Assembly: GCA_903953565.1 (NCBI GenBank) | Contig: CAJBKE010000068.1 | Coordinates: forward strand, 1-64,000 | Source: an uncultured Verrucomicrobiota bacterium | GTDB taxonomy: Bacteria > Verrucomicrobiota > Verrucomicrobiia > Chthoniobacterales > JACTMZ01 | Length of the DNA stretch: 64,000 nt | Reading direction: 5' to 3' | Shown here: one piece after another, positions 1 through 26,094 of the stretch | How the letters are laid out: each line of letters begins with the position of its first letter | Numbering within the stretch: position 1 is the first letter of the stretch | Notes under the pieces: model-generated | Database searches by the model: none | What the model was told of the DNA's origin: nothing | The model's input: the letters and a program-made list of their open reading frames with translations, nothing else | Program-made: the position numbers and the translations under genes

Positions 1-193
1 CCGCGCTCAGGTAAAAATAGTCGGAGCTGTATCCCTCCAGATCTTTGATTTCCTTCGGTCCCGGCAGGGTGATCTTCCACTCACTGAGATCAAAGGCGGT
101 GGACGGCGCCTGGGCGAAAACACGGGGCTCCCCTAAGAGCACAGCCCCGGCAAACGCCGCCGTCAAAAAACGGGCATAGCGCCGCGGGGGCAT
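1..193 (-). CDS. Polysaccharide lyase family 7 (alginate lyase), N-terminal part
   Basis: Only the first 64 codons lie inside the window; the gene runs off the left edge. The ATG at 193 opens a signal peptide (basic start, hydrophobic core, cleavage near VFAQA), followed by FDLSEWKITLPGPKEI and then YSSDYFYLSA. A mature N-terminus with 'LS.WK.TLP' followed by an aromatic 'YFY' strand is the usual start of PL7 lyases, which cleave beta-1,4 links in alginate by beta-elimination. The product is therefore probably periplasmic or secreted. It lies downstream of a Na+/solute symporter on the same strand, which fits an uptake-and-degradation unit. The catalytic R/Q/H/Y residues are outside the window, so activity and exact substrate cannot be judged. 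Confidence 0.75.
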   Translation of the reverse strand, partial: MPPRRYARFLTAAFAGAVLLGEPRVFAQAPSTAFDLSEWKITLPGPKEIKDLEGYSSDYFYLSA

Positions 194-22569: not shown

Positions 22570-24606
22570 CTACTCGAGTTTCTGGGCAACCTTTTCGAGG
22601 GTGTAGGCCTCGATGATGTCGCCGGCTTCGTATTCGTCGTAATCCCCGAGCTTGATACCGCACTCGAAGCCGTTGCGCACTTCCTTCACGTCGTCTTTGA
22701 AGCGACGCAGAGTCGAAATGCCGCCGTCGTAAATCGGCTGCTTGCGGCGTAGGACGCGGGCCCGTGCGGTGCGGAGGATACGTCCGTCCGTCACCATGCA
22801 ACCGGCAACGATACCCTTGGTCAGATCGAAAACCTGACGAACCTCGGCGTGGCCGATGACATTCTCGCGCAGCTCGGGTTCGAGCAGGCCGGCCATGGCC
22901 TCTTTGATCTGGTCGATCAGTTCGTAAATGATGGAGTAAAGTTTGATCTGCACGCCCTCGCGCTTGGCCGCAGTGGCCGCGCTGTTCTCCGTCTTGACCC
23001 CGAAGCCGACGACAATGGCGTCGGAAGCGGTGGCGAGGAGAATGTCCGACTCGCTGATCGGTCCGACCGCGGCATGGATGACCTCGAGGTCGATTTGCTT
23101 CGCCTGGATATCGCCGAGTGCCTGCACCAACGCCTCGAGTGATCCCTGGACGTCGGCCTTGAGCACGACGCGCAAGGCCTTGCGCTGATCGGCCGCAAGA
23201 TTGTCGAAAAGACTTTCCAGCGTGGCGCGCTGCGGGGCGGCCAGCTTTTCCTGACGCTGCTCTTCCTGACGCTCCTCGCTCAAAGTGCGCGCAGAGCGCT
23301 CGGAATCCATAGCCATCAGCTCGTCGCCCGCTTTGGGCAGGCCGTCAAAGCCGAGGATTTTGACCGGCATGCCGGGACCGACTTCTTTGACCGGCTTGCC
23401 GAGATCGTCGATGAGGGATTTGACTTTGCCCCATTGCAGACCGCAGAGGAACGGCTGACCGACCTTGAGCGTGCCCATTTTGACGATAACGGTCGCCGTC
23501 GGACCGCGACCCGGCTCCATCTCGGCTTCGATGATCGTGGCGCGGGCGGGAACTTTGGGACTGGCTTTGAGTTCCAAGACTTCGGCCTGCAAGGCCATCA
23601 TCTCGAGCAGGTGGTCGATGCCGGTGCCTTTGGTCGCGGAGACCGGACAGACGATCGTCGATCCGCCCCAGTCCTCGGGCGAAAGATCGTGTTCCTGAAG
23701 CTGCTGCTTCACCCGGTCAACGTTGGCGGCGGGCAGATCGGTCTTGTTCACCGCCACGATGATCGTCACCCCCGCCGCTTTGGCATGGCTGATCGCTTCT
23801 TCGGTCTGCGGCATGATGCCGTCATCCGCGGCGACAACGAGCACGACGATATCCGTGACGTTCGCGCCGCGCGCGCGCATGGCGGTGAAGGCGGCGTGGC
23901 CTGGGGTGTCGAGGAAGGTGATTTTGTGTCCGCCATGCTCGACCGAATACGCACCGATGTGCTGGGTGATGCCGCCCGCTTCCCCCGCGGCGACGCGGGC
24001 TTTGCGGATGAAATCCATGAGCGAAGTTTTGCCGTGGTCGACGTGGCCCATGAAAGTGATGACCGGCGGACGGGATTCGAGTTCCTCTTTGGTGACCTCG
24101 ACTTCGGGTTCGGAGGGCGGGGCGACGACCGGTTCCGCCTTGTGCACCCCGGCACCGGCCTGGCGTTTTTCTTTCTCGAAAACAAAACCATGTTTATCGC
24201 AGACGATCGAAGCAACAGCGGGATCGATCGTTTGGTTCAGATTGGCGAAGATGTTCGCCTCCATCAGATCCTTGATGACCACGAACGGCTTGAGGCCGAG
24301 GGCCGCGGCGAGGTCTTTGACCACGATCGGCGGCTTGATATTGATCACTTTTTTGCCGTCCTCGTTGACTTCGAGTTCGGCGGGGGCTGCGGGCTCCGGC
24401 GCGGGGGCGACCGGCGGCACTTCGGCGACCGGTTTTTTCTTCGGCACCTCGTCGATGAGTGAAACCACTTCGACCGGCGCCTTGGGCGCGGCCTTCGGCT
24501 TGGCGGGTTTGGCTTCCGCCGCAGGCCCGGAGGCAACAGCAGACTTCGGCTTCGCCGCGGTCTTTTTTGCGGCGGGCTTTTTGGTCGCTGGTGCTTTGGC
24601 GGGCAT
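22570..24606 (-). CDS. infB: Translation initiation factor IF-2
   Basis: 678 residues from the ATG at 24606. The first 75 residues are Lys/Ala/Pro-rich and probably disordered ('[15 protein letters not shown]...'), then an IF2-N segment ('[21 protein letters not shown]'). The GTPase domain has G1 GHVDHGKT (187-194), 'DTPGHAAF' and 'AVNKTDLP', and the C-terminal domains that bind fMet-tRNA follow. IF2 delivers initiator tRNA to the 30S subunit. It is shorter than the E. coli alpha form, with a compact N-terminus. It follows nusA by 21 nt. Confidence 0.96.
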
Positions 24607-24627
24607 GCTTGTTGAATGACGCAATTA

Positions 24628-25920
24628 CTAGGCGACGGCCGTTTCGGCGGGAGCAGGTTGGGACTTTGTGGCTTCGAGACCTTTGGCGCGCTCGACGATT
24701 TCGGCGGCCTTGGCTTCGTCGATGCCCAGCATGGTGACAAGGTCGCCCGCTTCGACACCGCCGGCCACGAGATCGGCCGGGCTGGGAATTCCGTTTTGGA
24801 CCAGCTTGGTCGCGGTCTCTTCGTCGAGTCCGAGTTGCGTCTTGAACGCTTCGGTCGCGCTGCTGACCTGATTTTCAAAGGCTTGCTCCTTGGAAGCGTC
24901 TTTCTCGATGTCCACTTCCCAACCGGTGAGTTTCGCGGTCAGGCGGGCGTTCTGGCCTTTCTTGCCGATGGCAATGGAGAGTTGGTCTTCGTCGACCGTG
25001 ACCTTCACGCGCTTGTCGGCCTCGTTGATCTCGATCGACTTGATCTTGGCCGGCTTGAGCGCCTCGACGACGAATTCTTTGGGATCGTCGCTCCACTTGA
25101 TGATGTCGACTTTCTCGTTGTTGAGTTCGCGGACGATGTTCTTCACCCTTGCACCGCGCATTCCGACGCAAGCGCCGACCGGATCGACTTTGCTGTCACC
25201 GCTGGCCACGGCGACCTTGGTGCGCACGCCGGCCTCGCGGGCAATGCCCTTCAACTGCACGGTGCCGTCGGCGATTTCGCTCACTTCCAACTGGAAAAGC
25301 TTGCGGACGAAGTTCGGGTGGCTGCGGGAAAGGATGATCTGCGGGCCGTCCTTGCCGTTCTCCACCGCGACGACATAAGCGCGCAGGCGGTCGCCGACGC
25401 TGTAGTCTTCAGTGACGACGCGCTCGCGCGAGGGCATGACGGCTTCGAATTTGCCGAGGTCGAAAATGACGTCGCTTTTGACGAAGCGGCGGACTGTGCC
25501 GCTGACGATATCGCCCGCACGGTCTTTGAATTCCTCGTAGATCCGCTCTTTCTCCACGCGACGGATACTCGACATGATGGCGTTGCGGGCCACGCCGGCG
25601 GCGATGCGGCCGAAAGCGGCGGGTTCGACCTCCACCTCGATGCTGTCGCCGGCTTGGATCCCGGGCTTCATGACCTGGGCGCGGGCCAGAAGCATTTCCT
25701 CCTGCGGGTTGGTCACTTTGTCGACGACGAGGACGTTGGCCACGCCGCGGATTTTCCCGGTCTTCGGGCTGATCTCGACGCGCAATTCGCGGGTGTATCC
25801 TCCGAATCCCTTGCCGGCAGCCTTGATGATGGCCTCCTGCATGGCCTGCAAAAGGGTCTCGCGCGAAATCCCGCGTTCGCGCTCCAAATACTCCAGCATA
25901 GTCAGCAGTTCGTTACTCAT
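24628..25920 (-). CDS. nusA: Transcription termination/antitermination protein NusA
   Basis: 430 residues from the ATG at 25920. The N-terminal RNAP-binding domain ('LLTMLEYLERERGISRETLLQAMQEAI'), S1 domain ('DIVSGTVRRFVKSDVIFDLGKFEAVMPSRE') and two KH domains ('VDPVGACVGMRGARVKNIV', 'SIAIGKKGQNARLTAKLTGW') are present, plus a C-terminal helix-hairpin-helix ('LGIDEAKAAEIVERAKGLE'). It modulates pausing and termination by RNA polymerase. rimP, normally just upstream, is absent; instead a promoter and a terminator-like hairpin form a leader of about 63 nt that begins after tRNA-Val, so expression is probably attenuated. Confidence 0.96.
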   Translation of the reverse strand: MSNELLTMLEYLERERGISRETLLQAMQEAIIKAAGKGFGGYTRELRVEISPKTGKIRGVANVLVVDKVTNPQEEMLLARAQVMKPGIQAGDSIEVEVEPAAFGRIAAGVARNAIMSSIRRVEKERIYEEFKDRAGDIVSGTVRRFVKSDVIFDLGKFEAVMPSRERVVTEDYSVGDRLRAYVVAVENGKDGPQIILSRSHPNFVRKLFQLEVSEIADGTVQLKGIAREAGVRTKVAVASGDSKVDPVGACVGMRGARVKNIVRELNNEKVDIIKWSDDPKEFVVEALKPAKIKSIEINEADKRVKVTVDEDQLSIAIGKKGQNARLTAKLTGWEVDIEKDASKEQAFENQVSSATEAFKTQLGLDEETATKLVQNGIPSPADLVAGGVEAGDLVTMLGIDEAKAAEIVERAKGLEATKSQPAPAETAVA

Positions 25921-25941
25921 GGTCGTTTCTCTTTTGAGGAT

Positions 25942-25969
25942 AAAAAAAAGTGGGCCGAAACCCACTTTT
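25942..25969 (-). terminator. Terminator/attenuator hairpin in the nusA leader
   Basis: Minus strand: AAAAGTGGG, loop TTTCGG, CCCACTTTT, running into eight consecutive Us. This is a 9-bp stem and a strong U-tract ending 21 nt before the nusA ATG, too close for another promoter to fit between. A competing hairpin CTTTTC-TGAC-GAAAAG (25980-25965) shares the AAAAG of the 5' arm, so two alternative folds are possible. Confidence 0.75.
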
Positions 25970-25989
25970 CGTCAGAAAAGGTTCCCTCA

Positions 25990-26018
25990 AACCTAGGGAT
26001 GCGCCTCCAGAGTGTCAA
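25990..26018 (-). promoter_or_regulatory. Sigma-70 type promoter for nusA-infB operon
   Basis: Minus strand: -35 TTGACA (26018-26013, perfect match), 17-bp spacer, -10 TAGGTT (25995-25990, 3 of 6 matches). Transcription would start near 25983, between the tRNA-Val gene and the leader hairpin, giving a leader of about 63 nt before nusA. Confidence 0.6.
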
Positions 26019-26022
26019 GCCA

Positions 26023-26094
26023 TGCGCGATGCAGGGTTCGAACCTGCGACATCTTGCGTGTGAAGCAAGCGCTCTACCACTGAGCTAATCGCGC
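26023..26094 (-). tRNA. tRNA-Val (CAC), CCA not encoded
   Basis: 72 nt with a complete cloverleaf: acceptor GCGCGAT/ATCGCGC with discriminator A, D-arm GCTC-AGTGGTA-GAGC, anticodon loop TTCACAC (anticodon CAC, reads GUG), and T-arm GCAGG-TTCGAAC-CCTGC. The bases after A73 are TGG, so CCA must be added by the nucleotidyltransferase, unlike the fMet and Ser tRNAs here. A possible promoter upstream is TTGACG (26139-26134) with AATAGT after a 19-bp spacer. Confidence 0.96.

Follow-up and report, generated by a model that had tools for sequence, protein, structure and literature searches.

The nusA operon and its surroundings

The window, a stretch of 64,000 nucleotides from an uncultured bacterium of the phylum Verrucomicrobiota, carries on its minus strand the operon nusA-infB-rbfA-nrnA-truB-ribF, with the identities of all six genes supported by NCBIfam. 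The first gene, nusA (24628..25920), encodes a protein of 430 aa (TIGR01953, NusA, E 3.2e-118) with a start in agreement with its relatives, and is followed by infB (22570..24609, start codon approximate; TIGR00487, IF-2, E 1.2e-224). The neighbour 5' of the nusA promoter is a tRNA-Val(CAC) gene of confirmed identity on the same strand (26023..26094), located 4 nt from the -35 box and devoid of an own terminator, an arrangement reminiscent of metY in E. coli. Reading of the sequence between the tRNA gene and the promoter reveals no terminator, and as the tRNA is not provided with one, transcription from it probably continues into the attenuator of nusA described below. At the gathering score, Rfam recognizes only tRNAs in the window; matches of low score, the L20 leader among them, were judged to be due to chance.

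An earlier note on this DNA had pointed out that rimP is missing. The gene is indeed not detected in the genome, but its absence is a trait of the phylum and not of this genome in particular, as the RimP_N family (PF02576) was found in 0/155 phylum genomes and 0/38 relatives by a model that a too-diverged RimP would escape. The same search was positive in 10 of 14 control genomes.

Promoter, leader and predicted terminator hairpin of nusA

Between 26018 and 25920 on the minus strand, the nusA upstream region consists of TTGACA, a spacer of 17 nt, TAGGTT, a short gap, AACCTTTTCTGACGAAAAGTGGGTTTCGGCCCACTTTTTTTT, 21 nt and the nusA ATG. The promoter proposed in the earlier note (25990..26018; TTGACA 26018-26013, TAGGTT 25995-25990) can be read directly and would open a leader of about 63 nt (25921..25983), as the note had stated; all other parts that the note had described are equally present at the positions it gave. 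A generic promoter scan misses the promoter due to a -10 box that is too weak, with 3/6 positions matching. The RNA would start near 25983, 7 nt past the -10 box.

The central element of the leader is a predicted intrinsic terminator of the rimP-leader type (25945..25970), GAAAAGUGGGU-UUCG-GCCCACUUUUU with the motif AGUGGG..CCCACU, which is supported by its fold, by covariation and by a covariance model. While the 9-bp stem recognized before is present (AAAAGTGGG, 25969-25961, paired with CCCACTTTT, 25954-25946), the true extent of the stem is 11 pairs, with the UUCG loop closed by a U.G pair and the base formed by a G.U pair. Folding of the leader, suggested in the earlier note as a check, yields a hairpin of -13.7 kcal/mol that is more stable than expected by chance (z = -4.2; 0/200 shuffles as stable). 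Counts from a generic terminator scan are uninformative, with 19 terminator-like sites compared to 12.8 expected. The U-tract consists of eight Us (25942..25949, read directly as Ts 25949-25942), of which four lie inside the 9-bp stem and only four beyond it. As had been stated, it ends 21 nt short of the nusA ATG at 25920; this distance is too short to accommodate another promoter, and nusA can be reached by read-through only.

Upstream of the terminator, a short hairpin CUUUUC-UGAC-GAAAAG (25965..25980, minus strand; -4.1 kcal/mol on its own), a candidate antiterminator, shares GAAAAG with the 5' arm of the terminator.

Conservation within the genus

The genus sample consisted of the genome of the window and ten others, nine of which, including that of the window, provided a complete nusA leader. 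Layout and spacing of promoter, hairpin and ATG are kept in 9/9 of these congeners, so that a terminator between promoter and nusA with access to the gene by read-through only is common to all of them, and loss of the hairpin in close relatives, considered in the earlier note as a finding that would speak against its reading, is not seen among them. In the genus alignment, TTGACA is invariant in 9/9 congeners, while 0/17 spacer columns are; equally, CUUUUC, AAAAGTGGG and CCCACTTTTTTTT as well as the U-tract show no change, in contrast to the variable loop of the small hairpin and a variable part of the terminator loop. Since the promoter box and the stem arms are constant and spacer and loops vary, both promoter and hairpin are supported. 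The conserved block begins at the predicted RNA start with AACC, of which 3/4 columns are invariant.

With the end of the tRNA located about 52 nt 5' of the hairpin, no other terminator in between and tRNA-Val preceding nusA in 8/9 genus genomes with a complete leader, the hairpin might be regarded as the terminator of tRNA-Val, with nusA being expressed through leaky read-through. The exceptional genome, congener G007, contradicts this reading, as its tRNA-Val resides on a different contig (L310) and lacks such a hairpin downstream, whereas promoter and hairpin are retained at its nusA (L009). In congener G008, the tRNA has moved about 40 nt farther off with the spacing of promoter, hairpin and ATG unchanged, and in other families no tRNA is visible in the stretch directly 5' of hairpin-bearing nusA leaders. 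A tRNA-Val terminator, which we consider the least credible explanation of all, was thus rejected: the hairpin goes with nusA and not with tRNA-Val.

Conservation and covariation across the phylum

The strict motif, G[TC]GGG..CC[CGT][AG]C-Un within 250 nt, is present in 78 of 138 phylum nusA leaders and in 0.3% of dinucleotide shuffles, with no case at -600 to -350 of the same leaders. Its reverse complement scored 19, as expected from a near-palindromic hairpin with A/U flanks. A looser form of the motif is found in 90 of the phylum leaders, and 70 of these 90 hairpin-bearing leaders are preceded by a like promoter (TTGACN-16..19-NANNNT). In f17, a family of the same class, the hairpin is present at 50/50 loci, a few of which are near duplicates or derive from one genome sampled twice. 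On the other hand, the strict motif is absent from the genomes looked at in families f2, f4, f5, f10 and f13 of the order. As the strict hairpin is lacking from the nusA leaders of several order families, it is frequent and widespread, but not indispensable.

The compensatory changes across Verrucomicrobiota that the earlier note had proposed to look for were found. In an alignment of 70 leaders, produced by MAFFT without structural information, 94.7% of the cells are paired and 6/10 pairs have changed on both sides, with a covariation score above that of all 500 shuffles (0/500 reach it) and of every slid version. As the sequences were picked by a pattern that demands part of the stem, the core GGG/CCC pairs cannot be counted as independent evidence; on the flanking pairs (columns 5-8), this pattern places only loose constraints. 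In a search with a covariance model built from the phylum leaders, the window hairpin scores highest in its own genome (36.3 bits versus 26.5 for the next).

Located near the ribosome-binding region, the hairpin might alternatively act on the mRNA only after transcription, through 5' stability or translation, and not terminate at all. Such roles do not need a U-tract, which directly follows the stem and is conserved phylum-wide, with three columns invariant in the 70 leaders, and we consider an exclusively post-transcriptional function very improbable. Attenuation of transcription before nusA, as the earlier note had proposed, is strongly supported by the promoter-terminator-ATG layout in 9/9 congeners and many families, by covariation and by the association of the hairpin with nusA.

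Competing and outer helices

The second hairpin of the earlier note is present as described, and its competition with the terminator is plausible. The best support comes from the nine congeners, in which the CUUUUC/GAAAAG stem is invariant and its loop variable, although a shuffle test in the genus of the window is not significant (mean z about -0.5). The same arrangement has statistical support in family f17, where CACUUU pairs with the 5' arm of the terminator (0/200 shuffles; permutation p 0.0014; 53 distinct leaders).

Other families of the order possess an additional, outer helix that encloses the terminator and is formed between the RNA start and a stretch past the U-tract (matched -12.7 versus permuted -9.8 kcal/mol, p < 0.0002). 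As the 3' strand lies past the U-tract, such a helix can form in read-through RNA only. It is absent from the genus of the window (matched -2.7, permuted -2.7 kcal/mol, p 0.59), and a UUUGAGG/CCUCAAA outer helix in the window was not counted as part of the device since the congeners do not conserve it.

The outer helix could bind a factor other than NusA, and in view of the role of the operon in ribosome assembly, the attenuator might be envisioned to respond to NusG, Rho, a ribosomal protein or the translation status. In the genus, however, no conserved binding site is seen besides the hairpin and the outer helix does not exist, which makes an effector other than NusA quite improbable.

Relation to the rimP-leader

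While its description of the hairpin holds, the earlier note made no connection with a known attenuator, the terminator named rimP-leader (Naville and Gautheret, 2010; PMC2965389). Characterized by the signature GGGc..gCCC, this element was ranked the most ubiquitous attenuator in 2010, and its sequence conservation along with the lack of an antiterminator was taken to indicate recognition by a protein, most likely NusA; RimP or NusA as effector was left undecided with NusA favoured (PMC2965389). The window leader shares with the generic form (PMC2965389, Fig. 2b) the lack of a large sensor domain and a short terminator, G-rich in its 5' arm and C-rich in its 3' arm, with a U-tract. Both belong to the 5' UTR of (rimP-)nusA-infB, with a distance to the first gene of 4-130 nt in the generic form and of 21 nt, to nusA, here. 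The signature followed by a U-stretch is recovered as GUGGGU-UUCG-GCCCAC-U8, with GGGU-UUCG-GCCC instead of GGGC..GCCC due to a U.G in place of the c/g pair; other phylum leaders carry GGGCC..GGCCC. Further differences are the short competing hairpin upstream, with an outer helix in related families, and nusA as the first gene in place of rimP, RimP being undetected in the phylum. The name 'rimP-leader' thus does not fit here, while the leader type does. As the leader is otherwise the same, we read this as loss of the rimP gene and not of the leader.

Operon specificity was assessed by a scan for AGTGGGY, 2-6 nt and RCCCACTTTTTT in a collection of one genome per species from about 85,000 species. 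Among the matches listed, 87/121 sites lie 5' of nusA in the same orientation, in most cases separated from it by rimP, and a minority lie elsewhere; in about a dozen other listed sites the contig or stretch end is too near for nusA to show. Nine of the listed sites lie directly before nusA with no rimP in between, including sites in Planctomycetota (L203, L211, L258), Chloroflexi (L254, L267), Pelagibacteraceae (L225) and a Spartobacteria genome (L229).

Longer forms of the leader also occur. The Rfam model RF01770 (rimP), which describes a leader of the same operon with 102 positions, has no match in the window or in any of 19 relatives at its gathering score of 47 bits, and E. coli alone matches among 14 control genomes. 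In E. coli, a tRNA gene (metY) is equally located upstream, and a CUGGGC-UUUA-GGCCC-U7 hairpin precedes rimP; NusA feedback on this operon has long been known (cited by Naville and Gautheret, PMC2965389). In Bacillus subtilis, NusA is reported to autoregulate by stimulating termination in the leader of its operon (Mondal et al., 2016, as outlined in the review PMC12288461). The intrinsic leader terminator is common to the rimP(ylxS)-nusA-infB leader of this organism and the window, with stimulation by NusA shown there and presumed here; the B. subtilis leader is given as 180 nt in PMC2965389, compared to about 63 nt here, and rimP is present. In Streptococcus agalactiae, which has rimP, RNA-seq evidence exists for termination ahead of rimP-nusA at 31 nt from the start, and NusA feedback has been proposed (PMC4448216); in the window, termination is likewise predicted very close to the start, after about 40 nt. 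A literature search for a nusA leader in Verrucomicrobia retrieved nothing relevant.

Attenuation and the probable role of NusA

By strong analogy to these systems, NusA feedback, the model of the earlier note, is the best functional explanation for the window leader, and we consider an attenuator before nusA-infB through which NusA limits its own expression probable. After initiation near 25983, the short AU-rich CUUUUC/GAAAAG hairpin would soon form, to be displaced as the more stable GAAAAGUGGGU/GCCCACUUUUU hairpin takes over the GAAAAG strand. Terminator and U-tract would then release part of the polymerases. NusA on the polymerase would favour the terminator, such that much NusA leads to more termination and less nusA-infB mRNA, and little NusA to read-through into nusA-infB. 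Read-through RNA from tRNA-Val would meet the same attenuator.

The assignment of NusA as the effector is open to a counter-argument, as the terminators most dependent on NusA are suboptimal ones (PMC12288461) and a hairpin of -13.7 kcal/mol with a UUCG loop is fairly strong. The leader might be a constitutive attenuator that passes a fixed fraction of polymerases with no response to NusA; regulation is not apparent from the window, nor is a large ligand-binding structure present. Against a merely constitutive device, the AGUGGG 5' arm is conserved beyond the need for pairing, with column 10 a U in 60/70 leaders and its partner A or G, and NusA feedback is known for equivalent leaders in other bacteria (PMC12288461, PMC2965389). 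We therefore regard a constitutive attenuator as unlikely.

Since RimP was found in 0/155 phylum genomes, NusA is the remaining obvious candidate of the operon for the effector of the attenuator. While the device upstream of rimP-nusA has been known, its persistence on nusA across a phylum without detected RimP is new and argues for service to nusA; the hairpin is linked to nusA and not to rimP. Such a phylum resembles an experiment of nature in which one gene has been removed, with NusA indicated as the effector, and the main value of the window element lies in the argument that the 'rimP-leader' is a nusA leader. Tentatively, the widespread 'rimP-leader' may in general be a dedicated NusA-sensing terminator, the AGUGGG 5' arm of which is recognized as a sequence either by NusA or by the exit channel of the polymerase. 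It would have stayed on nusA wherever rimP has been lost or is absent from the operon, as in Verrucomicrobiota and, apparently, also Planctomycetota, Chloroflexi and SAR11, and would be tuned by lineage-specific competing helices. The very short leader of about 63 nt would allow an in vitro test of NusA feedback.

Variant leaders in other families

Individual leaders differ from the common form. The outer helix comprises about 9-11 pairs in L010, L011, L016, L017, L020 and L022, for example CUAGUCCGC/GCGGGCUAG in L011, and starts close to where the RNA is predicted to begin. In the nusA leaders L057, L061, L078 and L080, a compensated GUGGAAACU..AGUUUCCAC or a close form replaces the GGG/CCC core, with the terminator shape retained. 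The leaders L028, L034, L036, L039, L042 and L044 of family f5, which lack the strict hairpin, display in most cases GACCGA/UCGGUC just 5' of the start codon followed by UUAUUGUUU, possibly a rebuilt attenuator.
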